The notes under the pieces are model-generated. The model worked only from the letters and a program-made list of their open reading frames with translations. It was not told the DNA's origin and searched no databases. Shown here piece after piece: positions 12,763 to 22,647 of a stretch of 64,000 nt of DNA. Both the position numbers and the translations under genes were made by a program. Numbering within the stretch: position 1 is the stretch's first letter; each line of letters opens with the position of its first letter. Location of the stretch: assembly GCA_036563485.1 (NCBI GenBank), contig DATCMI010000001.1:642938-706937 (forward strand), read 5' to 3'. The stretch is from Sphingomicrobium sp. (GTDB lineage: Bacteria > Pseudomonadota > Alphaproteobacteria > Sphingomonadales > Sphingomonadaceae).

Positions 12763-13284
12763 TCAGACCGTCCGCAGCGTCGCAGCATAATGCGACGCCT
12801 TCTGCGCATAATGCGCGGCGGAAAGGCGCAGTAGCTGCCGCTCCGTCTCGGTAAGCTGCCGCACGACGCGCGCCGGCGTGCCGACGATCAGGCTCCCACG
12901 TTCGAACCTCTTCCCTTCCGTCACCAGCGCGCCGGCGCCGACGATGCAGTCCGGTCCGATGACGGCGCCGTTGAGGATCCGCGCGCCCATGCCGATCAGA
13001 CAATCGTCGGATATCGTGCAGCCGTGGAGGATCGCCTGGTGACCGACCGTGACGCGGGCGCCGATGGTCAGCGGAAAGTCCGCGTCGCTATGCCCGATGG
13101 CGCCGTCCTGGAAGTTGGTGTCGTCGCCGAGGATCAGCGGCGTATTGTCGCCGCGCAGGACCGCGCCGAACCACACGCTTGCCCGCGCGCCGAGCCGGAC
13201 GTCGCCAATCAGGTCGGCCGACGGCGCGGCCCACGCGCCGGGGCCGAGGACCGGTTGCAGGTCGTCGAGAGCGTAGAGCGGCAT
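12763..13284 (-). CDS. Gamma carbonic anhydrase family / hexapeptide-repeat protein
   Basis: A 173-residue left-handed beta-helix protein built of hexapeptide repeats (for example IGDVRLGARASVWFGAVLRGD). The zinc-ligand pattern of gamma carbonic anhydrases is visible: His in GAIGHSD and the pair in VGHQAILHGC. Members such as YrdA/PaaY are trimeric; some have carbonic anhydrase or thioesterase activity and many are uncharacterised. Start ATG 13284 fits the family length. It is the last gene before the integrated island. Confidence 0.88.
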   Translation of the reverse strand: MPLYALDDLQPVLGPGAWAAPSADLIGDVRLGARASVWFGAVLRGDNTPLILGDDTNFQDGAIGHSDADFPLTIGARVTVGHQAILHGCTISDDCLIGMGARILNGAVIGPDCIVGAGALVTEGKRFERGSLIVGTPARVVRQLTETERQLLRLSAAHYAQKASHYAATLRTV

Positions 13285-13310
13285 TGTCCGCCCTTAGCGG
13301 CTATCCGACG

Positions 13311-13355
13311 CAGCATCCAAATTCCCCGCCGCAAAGCGGCGGAATTTGGATGCTG
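13311..13355. repeat. Long hairpin abutting the left attachment repeat
   Basis: The arms start at CAGCATCCAAATTCC (13311-13325) and end at GGAATTTGGATGCTG (13341-13355), with a GC-rich inner stem GCCGC/GCGGC and an AAA loop. About 20 bp pair, with a two-base bulge. It sits immediately outside the left copy of the tRNA-Leu end, so before integration it probably lay just downstream of the tRNA gene. It has no T-run, so a terminator role is uncertain. Confidence 0.6.
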
Positions 13356-13370
13356 GTGCCCAGGAGAGGA
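13354..13370. repeat. Left attachment repeat (copy of tRNA-Leu 3' end)
   Basis: TGGTGCCCAGGAGAGGA is identical to 22561-22577, the last 17 nt of tRNA-Leu including the CCA (read on the minus strand). The rest of a tRNA is not present here. This is the standard scar of integration into a tRNA 3' end and marks the distal end of the island. Confidence 0.85.
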
Positions 13371-13432
13371 ACGGACACAGCAAACAAGAAAACCGCGGAT
13401 TCAAGCCAATGATACATCGCTCCGACGAATGA

Positions 13433-13457
13433 CTTTGTAGCGCCTTTTTGTAGCGTC
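13433..13457. repeat. Left arm-type box pair (putative integrase sites)
   Basis: Two copies of CTTTGTAGCG(C/T)C begin 13 nt apart, at 13433 and 13446 (the second has one mismatch). The 25-bp unit matches the one at 22474-22498 at 23 positions, in the same orientation. It lies exactly 62 nt from the attachment repeat. Short repeated boxes flanking the core are how tyrosine integrases bind att arms; that function is inferred. Confidence 0.7.
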
Positions 13458-13910
13458 TCAAGCTTGAGGGCGCGGGTTCGCCGAGCCCAACCAGAACCCA
13501 TCAACGGAGGCAATCTTACCTCTCCACCAGACCCCTCCGTGTGTCGGGGTGAGCCCACTGGGCGAGATTACATGAGCATCCTTGAGATGGAGAAACTCGG
13601 GATGGGGAACCGGCCCCTCTGATTGCGCCACCTCGCCAAGCGCCTCCAATGCAGCATTGAACATATGGTCTTCCCGAACAGTGTCGTTACCAATGGTCTT
13701 TGTGTTCACGGCGGCGCGGGTTGCCTCGAAATAGGCGCGCTGACCGGCTAGCGTTCCGGTAATCGTCTCGCCATTCGCCATCACGGTGAGGCCGATGTCT
13801 ACGCCGATGTCAGCGAGACGCACGAGCTGCGAAAGGAGCCAGTCGTGGCCCTCCGGCAGCGGCTCGAAATCGCCATCATCAGGCTCATCAGGCGCAATGT
13901 CGTCGCTCAT
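13458..13910 (-). CDS. Hypothetical protein resembling GvpU-type accessory proteins
   Basis: About 150 residues, soluble, acidic N-terminus (MSDDIAPDEPDDGDFEPL). The segment VDIGLTVMANGETITGTLAGQ followed by AYFEATRAAV resembles the core of proteins annotated as GvpU, and the C-terminus has a conserved-looking GGVWWRGKIASVDGFWLG. No gas-vesicle genes are nearby, so the name would be structural only. I use ATG 13910; TTG 13916 sits closer to the AAGGGA ribosome site and is equally possible. The gene ends right against the left arm boxes. Confidence 0.6.
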   Translation of the reverse strand: MSDDIAPDEPDDGDFEPLPEGHDWLLSQLVRLADIGVDIGLTVMANGETITGTLAGQRAYFEATRAAVNTKTIGNDTVREDHMFNAALEALGEVAQSEGPVPHPEFLHLKDAHVISPSGLTPTHGGVWWRGKIASVDGFWLGSANPRPQA

Positions 13911-13984
13911 GTTCAAGTCATCCCTTCACTGGGTTGTTGCCAAGTAGGCGAGGCGACCCGTCCGTAGGCCGCCGCACCCGTCAT

Positions 13985-14305
13985 TCACTGGTCGTTACAA
14001 GGCGTGTTGAAGTTGCGGCGAAGGTCGGTTTCCTCATCCAGCCGCGACTGAAGCCCAGCTTTATTGAGGTGAGCGTGAATGTGCGTTGCGCCATGCTTCA
14101 ACGCGGCTTCCCACTTGTGGTGGGTCGATGTGCATCGCTCGCCGAGGCACTCCGATTCACCAATGTAGACGGGAACCCATTTGCCGTTTGCGACCTTCGC
14201 GAAAATGTAGTTGCCGGGCTCGGTCTTGAACGAAGTTCCGACGCCGTAAACGTGATAGGTGTAGGTCCGACCGGACGCCCCCGGCCACTCACAAGTTGTC
14301 GACAT
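13985..14305 (-). CDS. GIY-YIG nuclease-like small protein
   Basis: From ATG 14305 (AGAGGG upstream) the protein is 106 residues. It shows the GIY-YIG layout: GNYIFAK, then VPVYIGES, an Arg shortly after in LGER, a Glu in RLDEETDL and an Asn in CND at the C-terminus. These correspond to the Tyr, Tyr, Arg, Glu and Asn of the fold. Such stand-alone small members occur in phages and islands; their cutting activity is mostly untested. Next gene downstream on the same strand is the GvpU-like one, about 75 bp away. Confidence 0.68.
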   Translation of the reverse strand: MSTTCEWPGASGRTYTYHVYGVGTSFKTEPGNYIFAKVANGKWVPVYIGESECLGERCTSTHHKWEAALKHGATHIHAHLNKAGLQSRLDEETDLRRNFNTPCNDQ

Positions 14306-14729
14306 GCTTCTTACCCTCTGATGCGTTTCACGCGAGCGTAAAGCACCGTTGGACAACAGCATCGTGTGTGCCGGAATGCCCGTTCCAACCAGGGGAACGG
14401 ATGCGGCAAAAAGGTCCCGCTGTTTCCTAGACTGACCTCACATCACGCGGAATCGGGCAAAGCGCCCGAGTCGCCACAAGGCATACCAGAACTAAAGGGG
14501 AACGGCTACCGCTAATAGACGCTCATGGCAGCTTTCGGCGCAATATGTGGTGGATAAGCTGTGGGTCAAATGGTGTGCGGCCGGAAGGTTGCCCAGCTCA
14601 AGAGAGACGGAATCAACAACAGCAGCCGACCGCGTTTAGCGGTTGTTTTGAAGAGGCGTTGGCAACGGCGTATGGAACCGCGCGGAGAACCAAAGGGGAC
14701 CCGCTCGGTCCCTCATACGGGGAACTTAA
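14306..14729. other. Gene-poor stretch in the island
   Basis: No convincing coding frame is seen on either strand in these 424 bases. A short hairpin occurs at 14380-14400 (CCGTTCC ... GGAACGG, 7-nt loop), upstream of the minus-strand GIY-YIG gene. The plus-strand HEPN gene starts at the right end, so both promoters must lie here. Two short overlapping plus frames around 14545-14809 look like chance openings. Confidence 0.55.
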
Positions 14730-15584
14730 ATGGTCAGCGTCGTAGTGGGCCATCGGGCGACGTCAGTGACGATAGTCGGGCACGGGCTAGAGATACCCGA
14801 AAGGTTTAAGCTCGCTCCCGGCATTCATGTTCAACCCGAGGTGCCGACATTCGAAGTCGAGGTCGCGGCGGAAGGCTGCCAGACCCCGCACGAGCTATTC
14901 GCTGTTCTGTCGATGCGCGACATTGCAACGTTCTCCATAGAGGTGACGCATAAGGGAGGGCCGTCGGCGCTGGGGGCGAAAGCATGGAACGCACTCTGGG
15001 ACTTTCACCTTCTCAGCGTCGCCTCTGGGTCGCCCGCATTTCCGCTGTTCACCGTTTCAGCTGGGACAAACTACACCGAGTTTGCGATTTCCAACCGTAA
15101 CCTCATCGTCAACCCGGTCGAGCAACTAACACGCGTCACCAATGAACAGCTTACCTGGGCTCGGGCGAGCCGCCGACGGTTCAACAGTCTCATCAGCGAT
15201 GAACGGTTCGGCGTAGCTATGCGGTATTTCGGAAACTCGCACTATTTGTTCGACGTAGAATCCCGCGTGATGCTCCTTTGGGCTGGCATCGAGGCGCTTC
15301 TGGCGGTCGATGCGGAGCAAAGCCGACGCATTGCACTCTACTGCGCGCTAATGCTCGACGAGGACTCGGCCGCGAAGGCGCGATACTACGACGCGGTCAA
15401 AAAAGCTTACGGCGTTCGCTCTAGAGTCGTGCATGGCAAGAGGCTGACGAAAGCCGCACGAGCGGAGGCCTATACCACGGCGAGCGACATTCTCGTCAGG
15501 CTTCTTGCCAAAGCCGTGAACCTCGGGCGAGTCCCTACCCAGAAAGACTTTGATGCGGTCGCGACAGCCGCGAAGTTGAAATAA
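14730..15584 (+). CDS. Apea-like HEPN domain protein, candidate RNase / defence gene
   Basis: A 284-residue soluble protein from ATG 14730 with GGGGA upstream. The C-terminal 120 residues resemble the Apea-type HEPN domain: LLWAGIEALLAV (W.aiEaL), a middle helix SRRIALYCALML, then the catalytic-type motif RSRVVHG near residue 240 (R-x4-H). The N-terminal half is beta-rich (VPTFEVEVAAEG..., TNYTEFAISNRNL) and could be a sensing domain. HEPN proteins of this kind include anti-phage abortive-infection RNases such as ApeA. Assignment to defence is inference from domain and island location. It ends about 65 bp before the serine recombinase. Confidence 0.7.
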   Translation: MVSVVVGHRATSVTIVGHGLEIPERFKLAPGIHVQPEVPTFEVEVAAEGCQTPHELFAVLSMRDIATFSIEVTHKGGPSALGAKAWNALWDFHLLSVASGSPAFPLFTVSAGTNYTEFAISNRNLIVNPVEQLTRVTNEQLTWARASRRRFNSLISDERFGVAMRYFGNSHYLFDVESRVMLLWAGIEALLAVDAEQSRRIALYCALMLDEDSAAKARYYDAVKKAYGVRSRVVHGKRLTKAARAEAYTTASDILVRLLAKAVNLGRVPTQKDFDAVATAAKLK

Positions 15585-15594
15585 GGTTGCAGGA

Positions 15595-15636
15595 CTGTAT
15601 AAAACAGCGTAACGAACGTTAGGGAGTTTTATACAG
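15595..15636. promoter_or_regulatory. Nested palindrome upstream of the serine recombinase
   Basis: Perfect 11-bp arms CTGTATAAAAC (15595-15605) and GTTTTATACAG (15626-15636) enclose 20 bp that contain a second palindrome-like core TAACGAACGTTA. The right arm ends 13 bases before the recombinase ATG. Serine recombinases bind dimer palindromes at res/att sites near their own gene, so this may be its recombination site and/or operator. Confidence 0.55.
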
Positions 15637-15648
15637 AGGGCGTTGGCC

Positions 15649-16329
15649 ATGAAGGTTGTGGCGTATTACCGTGTGTCCACGGCCGCCCAAGGTCGCTCGG
15701 GTCTAGGCCTGGATGCCCAGCGCGAAGCCGTCGCCAGATATTGCGATGGCCGCTCGTGTGAAGTTCTGGGCGAGTATGTTGAAGTCGAAAGCGGTAAGCG
15801 GAACGACCGTCCCGAGCTGGCGAAAGCACTACACCACGCCAAGGTGACTGGCGCGACCTTGGTAGTCGCAAAGATAGATCGTCTTTCCCGAAATGCGGCC
15901 TTCCTGCTCACGTTGCGGGACAGCGGAGCCAAGATTGTGGCCGCCGATAACCCCGAGGTTACAGATGTGACGGTGGGCATACTGGCCGTCATTGCCGAGG
16001 AAGAGCGGAAGGCAATCAGTGGGCGAACTAAGGCCGCTTTACAGGCCGCGAAGGCGCGGAATGTCAGGCTAGGTAACCCGAATGGCGCGGCGGCACTCCG
16101 GCGTGCTGGGAAGGGGAACAAAGCAGCCCTTAATGCCATAAAAAGCGCTGCGGATCGTCACGCGCTCGACCTCTCGCCCGTCATTCAGCATCTGCGGTCC
16201 GAAGGGCACCGCTCGCTTCGCCAGCTCGCATCGGCGCTGAACGAGCGTCACTTTCGGACGCCTCGGGGGGGCAAGTGGTATCCTACCTCCGTGCGCAACT
16301 TACTTGGCCGTTTAGCAGCGGCAGACTAG
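15649..16329 (+). CDS. Serine recombinase, resolvase/invertase family
   Basis: A 226-residue site-specific recombinase. The N-terminal catalytic domain begins VVAYYRVSTAAQG with Ser10 as nucleophile, followed by DAQREAV, the Arg-containing KIDRLSRN and the end-of-domain helix EEERKAISGRTKAAL. The C-terminal 80 residues hold a helix-turn-helix-like region (LRQLASALNERHFRTPRGGKW). ATG 15649 is used because AGAGGG precedes it; TTG 15643 is in frame. It could resolve multimers, invert a segment or be a leftover of an older element. The upstream nested palindrome is its likely target. Confidence 0.9.
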   Translation: MKVVAYYRVSTAAQGRSGLGLDAQREAVARYCDGRSCEVLGEYVEVESGKRNDRPELAKALHHAKVTGATLVVAKIDRLSRNAAFLLTLRDSGAKIVAADNPEVTDVTVGILAVIAEEERKAISGRTKAALQAAKARNVRLGNPNGAAALRRAGKGNKAALNAIKSAADRHALDLSPVIQHLRSEGHRSLRQLASALNERHFRTPRGGKWYPTSVRNLLGRLAAAD

Positions 16330-16534
16330 CAACGCTGCTGCGCCGCCGCTTGCATTGTAGGATTCACGAGCCACTAGACTTTTTCGTGCCGAATGAACTG
16401 GGCGCGGGCGCGGCTGGGCGCTTCGGTTCCCTCTTCGTAGAGGACGTGGCGCTTGCTCCTCATTGTTGCCGCCAGCACGGCGCTGGTTCTCCCTCCAGGG
16501 TTCGCCGCCATCCTTGTGTGGCTCGCTTGGCGAC

Positions 16535-16879
16535 TTACGAGCAAGCGCGGGCGATGAGCCGCCCATTGTCCCAGTTGGGCTTGTAGACCGCTTGGGAACG
16601 CTGGAGTTGCCAGCACGAGAGGTTCACCCTTCCGGCCCACACGACCGCCACTATCCGCCCGAAGCGGTCTACCGTCACCGGCTGGTAGCGAATGGGGCCG
16701 AGGCGCATCGCGCCAGTGAGGCTCCGCTTGGACGCCTGTCCGTCGCCTGGGACACACACGCGCCAGCGGGGACAGGATGCCAGCTCGGGGGCGTCGATGC
16801 CGAGGAGCCGCAAGCGCTCGCGTCGACAGCGGAGCGTGTCTCCATCGACAACGTAAGCGCTTGGGCAGTCGACTATCAT
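16535..16879 (-). CDS. Staphylococcal-nuclease-like (thermonuclease family) protein
   Basis: A 114-residue protein with the SNase-fold start VVDGDTLRC and RLRLLGIDAPEL, the Lys-containing ASKRSL and the later VDRFGRIVAVVWAGRVNLSCW. The first Arg of the active site (RLRLLGIDAPE) and Asp residues are present. There is no signal peptide, and the protein is shorter than classic SNases; small sphingomonad members of similar length exist to my memory. About 200 bases separate its end from the recombinase, without visible genes. Confidence 0.7.
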   Translation of the reverse strand: MIVDCPSAYVVDGDTLRCRRERLRLLGIDAPELASCPRWRVCVPGDGQASKRSLTGAMRLGPIRYQPVTVDRFGRIVAVVWAGRVNLSCWQLQRSQAVYKPNWDNGRLIARACS

Positions 16880-16903
16880 CGGGGCAGCTTCGCGCCTGTG
16901 GCG

Positions 16904-16933
16904 AATGTCCGCAATGGGTGGAAAGCAGACATT
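16904..16933. repeat. Dispersed short palindromic repeat, copy 1
   Basis: AATGTCCGC and GCAGACATT flank a 12-nt centre (AATGGGTGGAAA). Close copies occur at 18817-18843 and 19445-19473, all in the island. The arms pair at 8 of 9 positions. Confidence 0.65.
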
Positions 16934-17149
16934 GCGCTCCGCTCACTGCGAAGCGGCGGAACTAAGCCCCTTGCAGTTGTGGGCCAACTTGCCCGCGAGC
17001 ACTTCCCAGCAACCAGTGGCACCCACCCATACAGAATGTTCGCCGCTGCTGTCGTGTTCAGGCTCTTCAAGCAGCATGGTGCCAGGTCGACCACATTGCG
17101 GGCATTTACGCTGCCATCCTCTCTGAACTGTAGCCATGTGAAACTCCTG

Positions 17150-17497
17150 CTACGCAGCCTTGCGCACGAGTTTGACGGCCTCGGTGAGGTCAGCCATCCC
17201 GAACGGCTTTTGAATGACTATTGCCCACGGGCACCGTTCGCGGACCGCGGATGCGGTGCCGGTGATGTAGAGCACTGGTATCGGCTTTTCGTCACAAATC
17301 CGCTGCACCGCGTCGATGCCGCAGCCGCGCGAAAGCTGCACGTCCGACGTGATAAGGTCAGGGCAGCGCTCCAAAGCGGCTGCTACCGCTTCCTGCTCGT
17401 TCATTGCAAAAGCGAAGGAGGTGAAGCCGAGAGCGCGTAGGCGATCTTCGATAAGCTGGGCGGTGAGAAACTCATCCTCAATGATGAGCGCGTGCAT
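17150..17497 (-). CDS. Single-domain response regulator
   Basis: A 115-residue stand-alone receiver domain without output domain. The acidic pocket EDEF is at the N-terminus, the phosphoacceptor is the Asp in ITSDVQLS (about residue 53), the Thr/Ser switch is in YITGT, and the conserved Lys is in IQKPFG. Its ATG overlaps the stop of the DUF6894 gene (TAATG), so the two are translated together. It may relay phosphate or act by protein contact; no histidine kinase is in the window. Confidence 0.88.
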   Translation of the reverse strand: MHALIIEDEFLTAQLIEDRLRALGFTSFAFAMNEQEAVAAALERCPDLITSDVQLSRGCGIDAVQRICDEKPIPVLYITGTASAVRERCPWAIVIQKPFGMADLTEAVKLVRKAA

Positions 17498-17751
17498 TAT
17501 GCGGCCATAACGGCGGGGATAATGTTCACCGCGTGTTCGAAGGGCAGAGTGTAGATGATTGCTCCGCCTTCATCCTCGGCATCGATACGGAAGCGCAGGT
17601 CCAGCAGTCCATCCCGGATGTCGCCCACCAGCAAGTCTCGGGCTGTAAAGAGCACCGCGTCGCGGAGCGCGGCAAGGCTCGCAAACTCCCGTCCCTCCGG
17701 ATCCAGTAGTTCGTCGGTGCCGTCTCGAAGATGCATGAAATAGCGCGTCAC
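17497..17751 (-). CDS. DUF6894 family protein
   Basis: An 84-residue protein starting GTG 17749-17751 with GGGGAG upstream. The N-terminal RYFMHLRDGTDELLDPEGREF followed by LAALRDAVLFTARDLL is the DUF6894 pattern, a small family of unknown function common in Rhizobiales and Sphingomonadales. It forms an operon with the following response regulator and is divergent from the Crp/Fnr gene, sharing the palindrome at 17833-17848. Confidence 0.8.
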   Translation of the reverse strand: MTRYFMHLRDGTDELLDPEGREFASLAALRDAVLFTARDLLVGDIRDGLLDLRFRIDAEDEGGAIIYTLPFEHAVNIIPAVMAA

Positions 17752-17832
17752 GATCCACTCCCCGACTACAAGGCGGGAGCATGGTGACTCTCAGCCGCCG
17801 ACGCCCAAGTCTTTGGCCGGCGATGTTTTTTT

Positions 17833-17848
17833 TGTAACACAAGTTACA
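17833..17848. promoter_or_regulatory. Crp/Fnr-type palindrome in divergent promoter
   Basis: TGTAACACAAGTTACA reads as TGTAA-N6-TTACA, the half-site length and spacing of Crp-superfamily operators. It lies between the divergent DUF6894/response-regulator operon and the Crp/Fnr gene. Autoregulation and control of the operon by that regulator is the simplest inference. Confidence 0.55.
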
Positions 17849-17978
17849 CGGGCTGTCCCATATTGTTTCGCCGAAGACCAAACTTAGTTTAGTTGGCAAT
17901 CGGCTAACGTGGATTGGTCGAGGTGCCTACCGTGTGCTATAAACGACCGTCGTTCCTCGGCGACTGAGAGGGTGTCTT

Positions 17979-18767
17979 GTGCTCCCGCCTATCTCTTCGG
18001 GAGCAATCGCAGTGCAGCCTCAAACCAATTCTTCCACTCTCGAGCCGCTGGTCGCCAAGCTCGCCTATCGTGCCGAGCTGGATGCGGACGATCGCGCTGC
18101 GATTCTTGGACTTCCCTTTACGATCAAGAAAATGCAGCGCGCCGAATTCATCGTGCGGGAACGCGACATTGCGACGCACTCGTGCGTTATGCTTGCAGGC
18201 TTCTCTATCCGGTCCAAGCTGGTCGCCACCGGCCACCGCCAAATTGTTGCTATCCACATGAAGGGCGAAGCCGTCGACCTTCAGAACTCGATGCTGAAAG
18301 TCGCCGATCACAGCGTGCAGATGCTCACCACCGGCAAGGTGGCGATGATACCCCGGGAGGCGCTCGTCGATCTTACGCTCGCGCGGCCCAAGGTAGGGCA
18401 CGCGATGTGGATCGACACCCTCGTTGATGCCTCGATCTTCCGCGAGTGGATTGCGAACGTGGGCCGAAGAGATGCCCGCACGCGCATGGCGCATCTGCTT
18501 TGCGAGTTCTCGCTCCGTTTAAAGTCTGCCGGCTTGGGCGATGAGGGCGGTTACGAGCTACCGATGACACAGGAACAGCTTGCTGACACGACCGGCCTGA
18601 CAGCAGTCCACGTCAATAGAACGATGCGGGCCTTGGAGAGGGAAGCAGTCATCAGCCGCCCGAACCCTCGCACACTGCGCATTGCCGATTGGCGCAAGCT
18701 TGTTGAGCTTGGCGATTTTGATAGCAATTATCTGCACATGCGCGAGGATGATGCGGCGTTCGCCTGA
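17979..18767 (+). CDS. Crp/Fnr family transcriptional regulator
   Basis: A 262-residue regulator starting at GTG 17979 with GAGAGGG six bases upstream. The N-terminal 150 residues are a cyclic-nucleotide-binding-like beta domain (VRERDIATHSCVMLAGFSIR). The C-terminal winged helix has TQEQLADTTGLTAVHVNRTMRALE, with the recognition helix in VHVNRTMR. There are no clustered Cys residues for an iron-sulfur centre, so it is not a classical FNR. A palindrome of Crp geometry sits in its upstream region. Confidence 0.88.
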   Translation: MLPPISSGAIAVQPQTNSSTLEPLVAKLAYRAELDADDRAAILGLPFTIKKMQRAEFIVRERDIATHSCVMLAGFSIRSKLVATGHRQIVAIHMKGEAVDLQNSMLKVADHSVQMLTTGKVAMIPREALVDLTLARPKVGHAMWIDTLVDASIFREWIANVGRRDARTRMAHLLCEFSLRLKSAGLGDEGGYELPMTQEQLADTTGLTAVHVNRTMRALEREAVISRPNPRTLRIADWRKLVELGDFDSNYLHMREDDAAFA

Positions 18768-18816
18768 GGGGCCGGGCTTATATCGGCTTTTCATCGAAAG
18801 CAGACCTAAGCGGCTG

Positions 18817-18843
18817 ATGTCCGAATGGGTGGAATGCGGACAC
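18817..18843. repeat. Dispersed short palindromic repeat, copy 2
   Basis: A diverged copy of the 16904 repeat (ATGTCCG ... GCGGACACT). A half-copy, CGAAAGCAGACCTAAG, lies just before it near 18795. The repeat touches the stop of the minus-strand membrane protein gene. Confidence 0.55.
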
Positions 18844-19403
18844 TAGCCCGCGAGCAATCCGGGGATCGTGGAACCAGGATAAGAAAGCACCAGCAGCGTG
18901 AGCCCAATGACGCTCAGCCTGCGTGACCGCGCCAGCAAAACTACCGCGCTGAATGCGACCTGTGTCGCTAGAAACGCCAGCCCTAACCAGCTTGTGTTGA
19001 CCTGCACACCCAAGGCAGCTTGATAAAGGATGGCAAGTAAGTTGCAGAGTACGACACCCCCGATGACCAGGCGGCGGTGCTCAAAATAATATAGATCGTA
19101 GTCCGGCCATTCGGTTGGCTCTTCGGGGAACGTGATCCGTGCAATTAAATAATAGAGCCCGGTCACAACCAAGCCGCACATAAGTGCCACGTAGCTGGCA
19201 GGGACCCGGTCTCTGATGAACCAGGCCCACATCCAGAAGGACGTTAGGTCGAGGGAGACAGCCAGCCCAAGAAGCGGCGACAGTAGCCCGATATGCACCT
19301 TTCGCCGTGATTGGAACGACTTGCCAAAGCCGCTGAGCAGCTCGGCGAGGCCAAGACCGAGGACAAGGCCGAAAAACGAAAATACGAAGCTGAATGTGTC
19401 CAT
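18843..19403 (-). CDS. Multi-pass membrane protein of unknown function
   Basis: A 186-residue protein with about five hydrophobic segments: 3-25 (FSFVFSFFGLVLGLGLAELL), 38-62, 70-92, 112-132 and 138-160 or beyond. There is no export signal other than the first helix. A short loop with acidic residues (FPEEPTEWPDYDLYYFEHRR) lies between helices 3 and 4. I do not recognise a family. The gene is flanked on both sides by copies of the same palindromic repeat. Confidence 0.7.
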   Translation of the reverse strand: MDTFSFVFSFFGLVLGLGLAELLSGFGKSFQSRRKVHIGLLSPLLGLAVSLDLTSFWMWAWFIRDRVPASYVALMCGLVVTGLYYLIARITFPEEPTEWPDYDLYYFEHRRLVIGGVVLCNLLAILYQAALGVQVNTSWLGLAFLATQVAFSAVVLLARSRRLSVIGLTLLVLSYPGSTIPGLLAG

Positions 19404-19444
19404 GCAGGGCGCCCCTTGCGGCGCACCCTAGCGCATGCGCTCCC

Positions 19445-19473
19445 AATGTCCGCAATGGTTCGAAAGCAGACAT
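19445..19473. repeat. Dispersed short palindromic repeat, copy 3
   Basis: AATGTCCGC, a 12-nt centre (AATGGTTCGAAA) and GCAGACATA. It matches copy 1 closely and lies about 40 bp before the membrane protein start. Confidence 0.6.
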
Positions 19474-19525
19474 AAGCTGATGGGGCGCAACGGACGCTTT
19501 ACCCTAGGACGCTAATCTCCTCCGC

Positions 19526-19870
19526 ATGGGGAACGTAAGGCCATTTCGCGGGCGACCGAGGCTCTCTGGCTATCGTGGACGCAAGAAGCGCGACAGCGGC
19601 GTCTACCCCTTCGTCGTGGGCGGCTTCGCTCTCGTGGCAATCTACGGCGCCCTCAATCCCGAAAAGATGCCAGCGCCCGTCCAAGCGGCTGCGCGAGCGT
19701 CGCGGGACCTCGGGCGCGAGAACAGCCCAATGGCGGGAGCTTACTACCCGAATTGTAACGCGGCTCGGGCGGCTGGGGTGGCTCCCATCTATGCGGGTGA
19801 ACCTGGGTATCGCGAGCCGCTGGATGCGGATGGAGATGGCATCTCTTGTGAGCCTTATCGGGGCATGTAG
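19526..19870 (+). CDS. Excalibur calcium-binding domain protein, membrane anchored
   Basis: A 114-residue protein. A basic N-terminus is followed by one membrane helix (VYPFVVGGFALVAIYGAL, about 27-43). The C-terminal 45 residues form an Excalibur domain: YYPNCNAARAAGVAPI, then the calcium-loop-like DADGDGISCEPY with the two Cys of the motif. Excalibur domains are extracellular and often accompany SNase domains; an SNase-like gene is 2.6 kb away on the same island. Confidence 0.85.
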   Translation: MGNVRPFRGRPRLSGYRGRKKRDSGVYPFVVGGFALVAIYGALNPEKMPAPVQAAARASRDLGRENSPMAGAYYPNCNAARAAGVAPIYAGEPGYREPLDADGDGISCEPYRGM

Positions 19871-20277
19871 CCACGCCATTCACACGTAAGGCTTAGCCCG
19901 CTTTTGGACCGCGAGAATGGACGCGACGGAGCGCACAGGCGTCGAGATTGCGGAGACCTCCGGCGCGGCCTTCTACGCTCATGAAAGACGGCCTTAGCCC
20001 GCCCTTTCCATACCCGAAATCCCATGGGGCAGGAGCCGGAGCCGCCTGGGAGACGCCAAAGGGTTTTACTCTCACTTTCAAGGGCTTGACAGCGCCCGCC
20101 TGGATCGGTGAACTGCTGTGGCTCGCGTGCGCGTAACTTTGGTTACCTATAGTTCCGCTCTTGCTGGCTAGGGGATTGAGGTCAGCAGACCTTTAGTCGC
20201 CTACAATCATCCGTTTACTCCTCTGGTCACCCGAGGGGGAGACTAGGAGGACACCACAGAAAGAAATTACGAAGTTT
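19871..20277. other. Gene-poor stretch in the island
   Basis: No coding frame I can support. Short frames on both strands near 19893-20136 overlap one another and show no family. A strong AGGAGG occurs near 20245 but is too far from the next ATG (20278) to serve it, and no start codon follows it at normal spacing. Confidence 0.5.
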
Positions 20278-20496
20278 ATGTCTAAACGGCAGCCCTTGCG
20301 CTCATCCGTCGATGCTATGTGCAAGGTTTGTATTTACGACCCCCTGGCCGGTGGGAAATGGCGGGAACAGGTGGCGCTTTGCTCTAGCAGCAGTTGCCCC
20401 CTCCATCCGCATAGGCCGGTCCCGAGACACTGTTCCCGGGACGGAATTATCATCCCACAGGCAATCAAAGAGCTGGGATTGCGGTTGGCGGCTTAG
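20278..20496 (+). CDS. Small Cys-rich, phage-type zinc-binding protein
   Basis: A 72-residue protein with Cys at CKVCIYDPLAGGKWREQVALC and again in CPL. The spacing C-x2-C ... C-x5-C suggests a zinc ribbon. Proteins with CIYDP..GTWR.QV..C...CPL are, from memory, common small phage and prophage proteins of unknown role, which fits the mobile context. The ribosome site (GAAG) is weak. Confidence 0.65.
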   Translation: MSKRQPLRSSVDAMCKVCIYDPLAGGKWREQVALCSSSSCPLHPHRPVPRHCSRDGIIIPQAIKELGLRLAA

Positions 20497-20553
20497 CCCC
20501 ACTTTCCTCGCCAAAGAGCGCGCTCTGATTGGTCTATGCTACATGGGTAGCGC

Positions 20554-20582
20554 GGGGGTCACGGTTAACCGCCGTGGCCCCC
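20554..20582. repeat. Strong hairpin between the Cys-rich gene and the integrase
   Basis: Arms GGGGGTCACGG (20554-20564) and CCGTGGCCCCC (20572-20582), one mismatch, 7-nt loop. It lies between the convergent ends of the 20278 gene and the integrase and could terminate either, although no T-run follows. Confidence 0.5.
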
Positions 20583-20758
20583 GATTTGTATCGTTAAGCC
20601 CTGCTTTCCAGACCATCGCTGGACCAGGCCTCGCCCGCTCACGTCGGGCCGTGCGAGATATTCAGATTTCGCACAGGCGTATTATTCACATAACACAGAA
20701 GATTTCCGCCGCTAACCGCGCCTCGCCCCGTGGGCTGTCAGCGGCGCAAGAGATGGGC

Positions 20759-22450
20759 TCAATCCGCAGGAGCGACCCAGCGACGAACGCGAGACAGGTT
20801 CAGCCTATCAAAGGTGACGTTGTGGATTTCGTCACCAAGAGGGCTCCGTGAACCGTAGCGCGTATTTTGTCCGGGATGGGCGTGGCCCTGGATGTAAGCT
20901 CGGGCATCCTCGGGAACGCGGCACCGCCGAGCTTCGGTCGTCCAAGTATGGCGGAAGTCACGTGACGGCAATTTGCCGGACGTGAGAGCGTTGTGCTTCC
21001 GCAAATAGGCCCCCCAGCTTTCCGTAAAGCCGCCATACAGCTCCTTCCGCTCGCCCTTGGTGCCGAGCGAAGGAAACAACGCCGTCTTTCCAGCCTCAAG
21101 CAGCCAACCCCGATAGTCGAGCAAACCAAGCTCAATGAGCAAACGCGGGATGGGGAACGTTCGCCTACCCTCGCCAGCCTTAAGGCGACGTTGCCCCTTA
21201 CGCGGATGCTCACCCGCGTCCGTGATTGTCAGCGTCCACTCGGCGGTCTCGGGGTCCTGGCGGATGTCGGTCACAAGAAGCTGGCAAATCTCCTCGGGCC
21301 TCGCCCCCGTGAAAATCAACATCAACGGAATCCAGTAGAGCGCCTCGCCCTTGGAGCGCGGAGGGCGCTCACCAGCCGTGAACAACGGAAGGTCGATGAT
21401 GGTCTGCAGCTCACGGAACGTGAACCCTTCCTTCTCAACCCGACGAGCCTTCGGAAACTTGTGTCTGGCGAACGGATTGGACGCACCTTCGCGAATCTTT
21501 CCGACGTCCTGAAGCTTCGCCCAAACGGCCGAGAGCATGGCGACGTGCTGTTTCATCGTCTTCACAGCCAGCGGCTGAAAGGTCTTGCCGTCGTAAGCGT
21601 CTACGAGCTTCGGCAGCGTCCAGCTCCGCTCATTGAAGGGGCGCTTCGCTGGGCATTTGGCGAGCAAGTCGATGAACTCGGCGACGTGCGCTCTCGTAAT
21701 CTCACGGGGCGTAAGTTGGCCATGAACCTCTTCAAAGAACCGAGAAGCCGTGGCCGTCGCTTGCTTCGTCGTCGCGCTGAACCCGAACGCCGTCCGCTCA
21801 AGCGCTTCGCGTGCCAGCGACACAAAGCTGACCGAAGCTGCCGAAGAAGTCTGCGTCGGCTGTCGACCAGCGGGCGCGGGCCCCACATCAGGGGTATCCA
21901 CCGGCACACCAGCATCCCTGGCGAGTTGGATTTCGGTTGCAGCAATAGTCGCCTTGAGCAGTTCGCGGCAGAGACGGCCGAACGCTTCGGTTTGCATGTC
22001 AAAATGCCAGCCTTGTTCGGCGGCGATGCTTACAGCTGTGGACCCCCACCGGCTGGTAATTTCCGGCCCGCTGCAGTCCTCCAGCTCGGACCCATAGCCA
22101 AGTTCGTTGGCCTCGTGCCGCTCGCGGTCGACGCGGCCAAGGATGCGCTCCCGTTCGTCCTCCGCCAGCACGTTCGCTTTGTAGGTTTCCGCGAGAAAAG
22201 CGATGCGGGCTTCATCCAAAAGATCAAAGGAGCCCGAAACAGCCTTCCGAGCTGTTGCCACAAGCCGCTCATAATCATCGTTCGCGGCTTGATAGCGCGC
22301 CATCGCACCTGGGTCCGCAAGGCTGGTCGCCTTGAGGGAAGCAATCAGCTCACGCTGGCCGATGTGGGCACGGAGCTTTTCAGGGAAGGAACGCCGATAT
22401 TCCAGCCGCCCCGCTTTGCGGGCCTGAACATATTGCACAGAAATCCCCAC
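20759..22450 (-). CDS. int: Tyrosine-type site-specific integrase
   Basis: A 563-residue phage-type integrase. The N-terminus (QYVQARKAGRLEYRRSFP) is the DUF6538-like DNA-binding entry domain, then a core-binding SAM-like domain near 210-300. The catalytic domain has the first Arg in TGARPEEI, the box RDFRHTW, where Arg stands in the usual place of the first His of HxxR, and the Tyr nucleophile in HPGQNTRYGS. It lies 110 bp from the tRNA-Leu and reads away from it. Tandem boxes that repeat at the other island end lie just upstream, so it should recognise them. Confidence 0.93.
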   Translation of the reverse strand: MGISVQYVQARKAGRLEYRRSFPEKLRAHIGQRELIASLKATSLADPGAMARYQAANDDYERLVATARKAVSGSFDLLDEARIAFLAETYKANVLAEDERERILGRVDRERHEANELGYGSELEDCSGPEITSRWGSTAVSIAAEQGWHFDMQTEAFGRLCRELLKATIAATEIQLARDAGVPVDTPDVGPAPAGRQPTQTSSAASVSFVSLAREALERTAFGFSATTKQATATASRFFEEVHGQLTPREITRAHVAEFIDLLAKCPAKRPFNERSWTLPKLVDAYDGKTFQPLAVKTMKQHVAMLSAVWAKLQDVGKIREGASNPFARHKFPKARRVEKEGFTFRELQTIIDLPLFTAGERPPRSKGEALYWIPLMLIFTGARPEEICQLLVTDIRQDPETAEWTLTITDAGEHPRKGQRRLKAGEGRRTFPIPRLLIELGLLDYRGWLLEAGKTALFPSLGTKGERKELYGGFTESWGAYLRKHNALTSGKLPSRDFRHTWTTEARRCRVPEDARAYIQGHAHPGQNTRYGSRSPLGDEIHNVTFDRLNLSRVRRWVAPAD

Positions 22451-22473
22451 GCGACTGGCTCCTGACGGGGCGC

Positions 22474-22498
22474 TTTGTAGCGCCGCTTTGTAGCGTCG
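22474..22498. repeat. Right arm-type box pair (putative integrase sites)
   Basis: CTTTGTAGCGCC (22474-22485) and CTTTGTAGCGTC (22487-22498), 13 nt apart, same orientation as the left pair. They are 62 nt from the tRNA-end repeat and about 25 bp upstream of the integrase start, so binding could also control the integrase promoter. Confidence 0.7.
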
Positions 22499-22560
22499 GA
22501 GCGAATCTAAGCGGCTCTATTCCGGCCTTTTTCTATGATTGCAACCACTTAGCGCAGCAA

Positions 22561-22647
22561 TGGTGCCCAGGAGAGGACTCGAACCTCCACGCCCTTGCGA
22601 GCGCCAGCACCTGAAGCTGGTGCGTCTACCAATTCCGCCACCTGGGC
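22561..22647 (-). tRNA. tRNA-Leu (anticodon CAG)
   Basis: Read on the minus strand, the acceptor stem GCCCAGG pairs with CCTGGGC and is followed by A and an encoded CCA. The anticodon arm is CCAGC-TTCAGGT-GCTGG, giving CAG (reads CUG). A long variable arm (GCGCTCGCAAGGGCGT) and GGTTCGAGTCC T-arm confirm a class II leucine tRNA. Its last 17 nt form the attachment site of the island. Confidence 0.97.

Follow-up and report, generated by a model that had tools for sequence, protein, structure and literature searches.

A 9.2-kb sphingomonad island at a tRNA-Leu(CAG) gene that carries a tyrosine integrase and a serine recombinase

Two described systems offer points of reference for the locus considered here. 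The I55-family islands of Pseudomonas, as presented in the part of PMC12595487 (PNAS 2025) drawn on here, use tmRNA as the target, are bounded by a 14-bp repeat, and encode AlpA; a jumbo phage carries I55. PinQ, a serine recombinase with an effect on phage defence, inverts a 1797-bp segment, and recombinases often adjoin anti-phage genes, according to the portion of PMC12529663 used here. The present locus is a sphingomonad island of 9.2 kb seated at a tRNA-Leu(CAG) gene in a 64,000-nucleotide stretch of Sphingomicrobium DNA (the window). It is a genuine integrative island, which is presumably mobile and, in the copy carried by the window, putatively defensive.

Element ends, target and tyrosine integrase

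The sole tRNA of the window, an intact tRNA-Leu(CAG), has been located by ARAGORN at 22561–22647 on the minus strand. Rfam gives a full-model match to tRNA (53.8 bits) and no other match above the gathering score in the stretch. The 17-bp 3′ end of this tRNA, TGGTGCCCAGGAGAGGA, occurs in two exact direct copies: the attR core (22561–22577, +) is the end of the intact tRNA itself, and the attL core (13354–13370, +) forms the left boundary of the element, which thus covers 13354–22560 (9,207 bp) plus the second core copy. No further copy of TGGTGCCCAGGAGAGGA within 3 mismatches is present in the window, and at least two such matches appeared in 1 of 100 shuffles. A pair of arm-type sites, TTTGTAGCG repeated twice with a 13-bp period, lies 63–65 bp inward of each core, at 13434–13455 (+) on the left and, in the same orientation, at 22474–22495 (+) on the right; the arm-type repeat TTTGTAGCGNNNNTTTGTAGCG has its only two matches in the window at these positions, versus 0.03 expected. 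These paired repeats were missed in the first reading of the sequence. Because paired TTTGTAGCG sites stand inside each core, both ends of the element are secured.

The preliminary description proposed an integrative island at tRNA-Leu with a 17-bp duplication of the tRNA end at 13354 and 22561. The duplication is indeed exact and direct, and the island is borne out by its cores and arm sites as well as by the distant empty sites and the integrase relatives beside this tRNA in five more genomes of the genus, both described below. The segment of about 9.2 kb has a lower G+C content than its flanks (57–64% in 1-kb windows wholly within the island versus about 65% outside).

A tyrosine integrase next to the tRNA had likewise been reported, and the gene (20759–22450, −) is intact and starts about 110 bp from the tRNA. 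Its product matches the PHROG integrase family phrog_1 (E 4.8e-24), and its Pfam matches to DUF6538, at the N-terminus, and Phage_integrase are both weak and under the cut-offs. It contains R384, K424, R500, H523, and Y532, which we take to be the positions of the tyrosine-recombinase pattern. A search of solved structures with the integrase alignment returned nothing usable. Relatives at E ≤ 1e-60 are encoded by 7 of the 71 genomes of the genus, the own genome included, and in 6 of these 7 the integrase gene adjoins tRNA-Leu(CAG); in the seventh (G046), where the contig is cut, the core is present with no tRNA adjoining. The closest relative is 48% identical, so there is no case for recent movement. 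No relative was found in the scan of viral contigs, one weak and partial match was obtained among 50,697 phage records, and 29 plasmid records matched distantly (24–33% identity in the best 15 of 29). Azospirillum is the commonest name among the plasmid matches listed; thus, distant relatives of the integrase are not confined to sphingomonads.

Related elements, their far-end slot and the remaining cargo

Besides the window copy, related integrases adjoin tRNA-Leu(CAG) in five further genomes of the genus, and Sphingomonas sp. AR_OL41 bears an element at the same tRNA site with a 17-bp repeat. Pairs of arm sites are found at both ends in 5 of the 6 tRNA-Leu(CAG) elements of the genus, G046 being left out of this count since its cut contig has no tRNA. 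The sixth element, that of G003, has the right arm pair only, with a left repeat bearing one mismatch and no left arm sites, and its locus holds little beyond the integrase. Five elements of 6.7–9.2 kb are built on one common plan, and no transfer or phage genes were noticed in them among the part of their proteins scanned against families. L089, L090, L091, and L096 are identical with the loci of G045, G003, G046, and G061 and are counted once. In a comparison of 22 loci, both flanks were recognised in 12. Two of the 12, in G025 and G043, are empty, with 441 and 475 bp separating the tRNA from a carbonic-anhydrase-like flank gene and no second core within 1 mismatch; several others are filled by different DNA. 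The flank protein of the two empty-site genomes is 59% and 54% identical, a distance at which base-level joining of the flanks is impossible.

The stretch between attL and a palindrome upstream of the serine-recombinase gene (see below) forms a slot, in which about half the relatives carry an anti-phage gene or system. Defence-type genes occupy it in 5 of the 9 elements with a readable slot: a Thoeris set (ThsA and two TIR proteins) in G032, Mrr in AR_OL41, an SbcB-like gene in G061 (RTasSbcB, E 3.5e-110), an LmuB-like gene in G041 (E 1.2e-19), and a weak methylase-like match in G055 (best E 2.6e-8). The slots of the remaining four (G000, G024, G045, and G064) gave no clear defence match.

In the window copy, the slot holds three uncharacterised genes. 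The first encodes a GvpU-like protein of 152 aa (13458–13916, −; 59.9 bits against a curated cut-off of 70), and a homologue with 38% identity is encoded close to the G009 serine recombinase. The second encodes a protein of 125 aa (13985–14362, −) present in 1 of 71 genomes of the genus, its own. A GIY-YIG-like motif was discerned in it by eye alone; the assignment was rejected, as profile comparison gave a non-significant probability of 13% over 17 residues. The third product, a candidate HEPN-type defence protein of 284 aa (14730–15584, +), bears an RSxVVH motif conserved in 3 of 3 homologues; homologues are encoded near restriction-type and AAA/UvrD genes. It has no PADLOC match, no credible Pfam match, and no HEPN family in Pfam; solved-structure searches with the protein and its alignment yielded nothing usable, and its single-sequence structure model (pLDDT 37) is too poor for reading the fold. 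The slot of this copy most likely contains a HEPN-type nuclease and two partner genes. PADLOC found no defence system in the window, ThsA and ThsB being absent from the island, and returned a single weak SNase-domain match. The possibility of a "defence-carrying" island, raised previously, is supported for the family, with Thoeris in G032 and Mrr in AR_OL41; for the window copy, whose left-slot genes match no known defence family, a defensive role is putative.

The remaining cargo consists mostly of regulators and small proteins with no relation to defence. It includes an SNase-like nuclease (16535–16879, −; Pfam, PHROG), a single-domain response regulator (17150–17497, −; Pfam), a DUF6894 protein (17497–17751, −), a Crp/FNR-family regulator (17979–18767, +; Pfam), a 186-aa protein with no family match (18843–19403, −) that has 28–34% identical relatives near the serine recombinases of G064 and G046, an Excalibur-domain protein (19526–19870, +) with a relative within the G024 element, and a 72-aa ORF with no family match that may not be a gene (20278–20496, +). 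A 29-bp palindromic intergenic repeat is found at 16904–16932 and again at 19445–19473. As the preliminary description had it, structural phage and transfer genes are missing: among the 12 island proteins scanned, each against one or more libraries, there was no match to structural phage, packaging, capsid-remodelling, phage replication, relaxase, or conjugation families. A replication-initiator gene was not found in the island either.

The serine recombinase and its palindrome

A Pin-like serine recombinase (Pfam, PHROG) is encoded at 15643–16329 (+), with possible starts at TTG 15643 and ATG 15649. Immediately upstream is a 38-bp imperfect palindrome with the asymmetric centre AA (15597–15634), which may serve the recombinase as crossover and operator site. 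With up to 3 mismatches allowed in 25 bases, no second such site was found in the genome, nor was one found below 16 mismatches of 40 in the loci fetched for 18 homologues; a role as a DNA invertase is accordingly unlikely and has been rejected. A solved-structure search with the protein gave nothing usable.

The gene lies inside 5 of the 6 tRNA-Leu(CAG) elements of the genus and inside three tRNA-Ala elements, and in all 8 it is oriented towards the integrase. It is absent from the G003 element and from the four integrase loci outside the genus (L092–L095). Of the 8 elements, 5 (window, G061, G032, G041, and G064) have a clear palindrome upstream of the gene, and 3 (G045, G024, and G055) do not; the G046 recombinase, being a fragment, was excluded from the palindrome and identity comparisons. 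Copies also occur outside this integrase family (L074, L076–L078, L084, and L088). Relatives on plasmids are 51–56% identical among the matches listed, 14 of 15 residing on plasmids below 50 kb. All four plasmids fetched carry a replication-initiator gene, and two of the four have a clear upstream palindrome. The serine-recombinase module may have a history partly separate from that of the island. Its own palindrome is the most likely site of action of the resident recombinase, which would there resolve dimers or tandem copies and control its own promoter.

Alternative explanations and relation to known systems

Taken as a whole, we consider it probable that the island is a site-specific integrative element with an often-defensive slot and a serine recombinase working at its own palindrome. 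The tyrosine integrase would bind the paired arm sites close to each end and recombine the 17-bp core formed by the 3′ terminus of tRNA-Leu(CAG), leaving the tRNA whole. As no transfer genes are recognised, the excised element would move between cells by means of a helper (a transducing phage or a conjugative element) or through the uptake of free DNA. The most serious competitor, which we regard as possible while favouring the former, is an ordinary integrative island in which the serine-recombinase gene is ordinary cargo that came from small plasmids and plays no part in the element. The mostly small plasmids bearing its relatives (among the matches listed), the copies outside the integrase family, the absence from G003 and from all four loci outside the genus, and the lack of a clear palindrome in 3 of 8 elements are in line with this; the recurrence of the gene in 5 of 6 tRNA-Leu(CAG) and three tRNA-Ala elements, always inside and facing the integrase, speaks against it.

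That the locus is instead what decay has left of a once larger integrative conjugative element or prophage, reduced to the integrase and some cargo, seems unlikely to us. The mixed cargo, the intergenic repeats, the uneven G+C, and the nearly bare G003 locus would fit such decay, but no damage is seen in the integrase, the tRNA, either core, or either arm pair, and the five elements sharing one plan showed no transfer or phage genes in their partial scan. Small size, a tRNA site, an integrase at one end, and missing transfer genes are also what would be expected of a PICI- or P4-like satellite, packaged by a helper phage using packaging or capsid-remodelling genes of its own. The earlier suggestion of a satellite has, however, gained no positive support, given the family results for the 12 proteins, the empty viral-contig scan, and the single weak phage match, and we judge it unlikely; a phage may still transport the island without the latter having packaging genes. 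Returning to the element with a working serine recombinase, a bolder version, to which we give little credence, makes the recombinase and palindrome a cargo-exchange device that swaps the whole attL-side slot, and the 284-aa RSxVVH protein an undescribed defence effector. Related islands in tandem or as circles would then recombine at the palindrome while integrase, arm sites, and target stayed unchanged, and the family would trade defence systems by site-specific recombination. If cargo is truly swapped in this way, the rapid replacement of defence genes would acquire a concrete and testable mechanism.

The two ends, the target, the arm sites, and the relatives together define a family of very small sphingomonad islands, whose attL-side slot is a place to search for new anti-phage genes. 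In the titles and abstract starts of the open-licence papers listed, neither a paper naming this family nor a mention of DUF6538 was found. Compared with the I55 islands, as far as they are covered by the part of PMC12595487 drawn on, a tyrosine integrase adjoining an RNA gene, direct repeats, the lack of transfer genes, and defence cargo (here clear in some relatives of the window copy) are shared. The tRNA-Leu(CAG) target, a different integrase, and the serine-recombinase gene set the present island apart; neither "serine recombinase" nor "resolvase" appears as a term in that paper's main text, and with no AlpA match among the 12 proteins scanned, the I55 family proper does not fit. Unlike PinQ, as portrayed in the same portion of PMC12529663, the serine recombinase here has no second site in its genome, and inversion is unlikely. 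It resembles, at 51–56% identity among the matches listed, the resolvase-type recombinases of small alphaproteobacterial plasmids, which differ from the island in their replication-initiator genes (four of four fetched). With the genomic islands of the Islander kind, in the part of PMC4383910 consulted, the locus shares the tRNA kept whole, the copy of the tRNA end displaced to the opposite boundary, and the tyrosine integrase. To this general class, as outlined there, the present family adds arm pairs, a defence-prone slot, and usually a second recombinase, and we regard it as new among small tRNA-integrating islands, with a layout that combines two unrelated recombinases.

The island ends and the tRNA-Leu(CAG) site

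The tRNA-Leu end duplication reported in the preliminary description is confirmed: exact 17-bp copies of the tRNA-Leu(CAG) 3′ end (cores) lie at 13354–13370 and 22561–22577, and the target tRNA is intact. G+C content drops from about 65% outside the island to 57–64% within it. The tyrosine integrase, which had been placed inside the island beside the tRNA, is indeed found there (20759–22450); it matches PHROG integrases with an E-value of 4.8e-24, and its Pfam matches to DUF6538 and Phage_integrase are weak and below their cut-offs. Immediately outside the left core, a long near-perfect inverted repeat recognized by eye (13314–13353) is perhaps a terminator.

The segment had been described as an integrative island, and distant congeners that lack it support this. 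Both flanks were located in 12 of the 22 tRNA-Leu(CAG) loci inspected, and two of these 12, in the genomes G025 and G043, are unoccupied and have no second core, with distances of 441 and 475 bp, respectively, between the tRNA and the start of the left flank gene (carbonic-anhydrase-like in our reading). Other loci are filled with DNA devoid of the window-type integrase, as judged by a crude motif screen that missed the integrase of G053. The G053 element has a 22-bp repeat, a far-end type IIG restriction gene, and an integrase that we read as differing in kind from that of the window; thus, tRNA-Leu(CAG) serves more than one kind of element. In the G007 locus L048, a 44-bp inverted copy of the tRNA-Leu 3′ end and the adjacent downstream DNA (14796–14839) lies beside a partial, distant integrase match, apparently representing a rearranged element at the same tRNA.

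The integrase family (E ≤ 1e-60) is present in 7 of 71 genus genomes, the window's own included. Six of these genes adjoin tRNA-Leu(CAG), and the seventh (G046, locus L046) lies on a cut contig where the core is present with no tRNA beside or after it; its box-I arginine is replaced by Q and its serine recombinase is a fragment, so that it is a decayed or misassembled copy. A pattern-based scan of GTDB contigs yielded eight loci, all from Sphingomonas or Novosphingobium, some of them adjoining tRNA-Leu(CAA) or tRNA-Gln(CTG). Distant relatives reside on plasmids of other Proteobacteria (24–33% identity among the matches listed).

Just inside the cores, paired repeats TTTGTAGCGNNNNTTTGTAGCG occur in the same orientation at 13434–13455 and 22474–22495, 63 bp inward from the left core and 65 bp from the right one, as the sole two matches in the window at ≤3 mismatches (0.03 expected). 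Similar pairs, some degenerate, are found at both ends of the elements from G024, G055, G061, and G045; with the window included, this makes five of the six loci in the genus where the integrase adjoins tRNA-Leu(CAG). G003 has the right pair only, and its left repeat, bearing one mismatch, may not mark the true element end. A diverged pair is present at both ends in the Sphingomonas strain AR_OL41, whose integrase is 39% identical. The paired repeats probably serve as integrase arm sites.

The serine recombinase and its palindrome

A Pin-like serine recombinase (15643–16329) lies inside the att-bounded element. In all eight elements that carry it, whether at tRNA-Leu (the window, G024, G055, G061, G045) or tRNA-Ala (G032, G041, G064), the gene is internal and directed at the integrase; it is absent from G003 and from the four integrase loci outside the genus (L092–L095). 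In the G061 element (L080), an IS605-type TnpB-like gene directly follows its 3′ end (12957–14117, + strand). A ParB-like protein is encoded between the two recombinases in L043, L045, L047, L080, and L046 (the last assigned through BLAST grouping), matching phrog_1033 in four of four scanned and Pfam in none of five; no such protein was noticed in the window copy.

Among 18 homologues, four of them on plasmids, an upstream imperfect palindrome was found in 13 when judged against 300 shuffles (reached by at most 8), centred 28–60 bp ahead of the aligned start. Its central dinucleotide is self-complementary in none of the 13, a post hoc observation with a chance of about 2%. The palindrome passes in five of the eight elements, the window's 38-bp site (15597–15634) among them, and fails in G045, G024, and G055, the sequence in the latter two being still alignable with the site. 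No second copy of the window site was found in its genome.

In six pairs (window–L045, window–L080, L045–L080, L047–L080, L074–L080, and L075–L085), DNA homology starts within about 2 bp of the left palindrome edge and extends to approximately the recombinase gene end; in the remaining pairs, it starts further in. The same pattern is expected where a gene and its operator are conserved as a unit. No correlation exists between the integrase and recombinase identities (Spearman −0.14, p 0.70; ten non-independent pairs from five elements): relative to the window, G045 has the nearest integrase (48%) and a 49% identical recombinase, and G055 the most distant integrase (40%) and a 76% identical recombinase. 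Further, G009 bears a 72% identical recombinase with no relative of the window integrase within the 19.9 kb fetched. Taken together, the homology edges, the uncorrelated identities, and the G009 copy suggest separate movement of the serine-recombinase module. The grouping of G024 with G061 in both trees argues against full independence; the recombinase tree is unsafe because of two long branches (G041, G045). In L084 (G064:C2:533500–553400), relatives of the window's Crp (51%), 186-aa protein (28%), and serine recombinase (55%) lie together, the window-type integrase is absent, and we read the nearby ORFs as tyrosine-recombinase-like.

As to function, the enzyme would resolve dimers or tandems, a role proposed because it resembles the recombinases of small plasmids and its site is single. 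That it is mere cargo is distinctly possible without being probable, and exchange of cargo at the palindrome site is very doubtful; the former gains and the latter loses from the failure of the palindrome in three elements, the lack of the recombinase in the four integrase loci outside the genus, a 49-bp match left of the palindrome shared by L047 and L080, and the partly congruent trees.

Cargo and noncoding repeats

The slot that runs from the far end to the serine-recombinase palindrome (the far part where no such gene exists) holds defence-type genes in five of the nine elements in which it is readable: Thoeris (ThsA macro and two TIR proteins) in G032, an SbcB-like exonuclease with a weak GIY-YIG match in G061, a 984-aa protein weakly matching methylases in G055, an SMC/LmuB-like ATPase in G041, and an Mrr restriction enzyme in AR_OL41. 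The integrases of G032, G041, and AR_OL41 sit on more distant branches. No clear defence match was obtained for the slots of G064 (a SEC-C motif alone), G024 (a TIGR04255 match below the cut-off), G045 (two small proteins scanned), and the window.

The window slot encodes a 152-aa protein, GvpU-like below the cut-off, a 125-aa protein found in one of 71 genus genomes, namely its own, and a 284-aa protein found in two of 397 family genomes (own included) and on one Agrobacterium plasmid. All three homologous proteins share RSxVVH, a pattern seen in HEPN nucleases. Since this protein matches no PADLOC family and, in Pfam, gives a sub-threshold HNH_repeat match and nothing else, its possible defence role is drawn from its place and neighbours: in G117, the homologue adjoins genes that we read as cytosine-methylase-like and Vsr-like, and on the Agrobacterium plasmid AAA-ATPase and UvrD genes lie at least 1.5 kb away.

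A 27–29-bp palindromic repeat occupies gaps between the right-slot cargo genes (16904–16932, 19445–19473; degenerate at 18779–18842). The 2.33-Mb genome contains eight copies at ≤3 mismatches, two in the island and four on one strand within 11 kb (G000:C1:1396434–1407575), where it also lies 3′ of a second Crp/FNR-like gene; it is frequent in the loci L056, L088, and L076 as well and could be a REP-like or cassette-boundary element. In the three tRNA-Ala(GGC) elements, the integrase is followed on its 3′ side by a common, apparently noncoding segment of about 200 bp (L075:10921–11140, +; L085:6102–6320, −; L079:8340–8580, −), which is 78% identical, more conserved than the integrase DNA, and holds two GGGAGAGnCCG...GGTTCAT units. 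It occurs in one of 397 sampled family genomes and has no Rfam match; a structured RNA is possible, with double changes at 5 of the 59 pairs predicted but a covariation term that is unfavourable on balance.

Mobility and comparison with known islands

In the proposed scheme, the tyrosine integrase would insert the island at the tRNA, a step that is well supported. A helper would move the island between cells, as may be supposed because of the lack of recognized transfer genes and by analogy with the Pseudomonas tmRNA defence island I55, which is transduced by a jumbo phage according to PMC12595487. Defence islands in tRNA and tmRNA genes that lack transfer genes are already known; the present family, its arm sites, the use of tRNA-Leu(CAG), and the recurrent two-recombinase plan appear to be new, as far as searches of the literature show.
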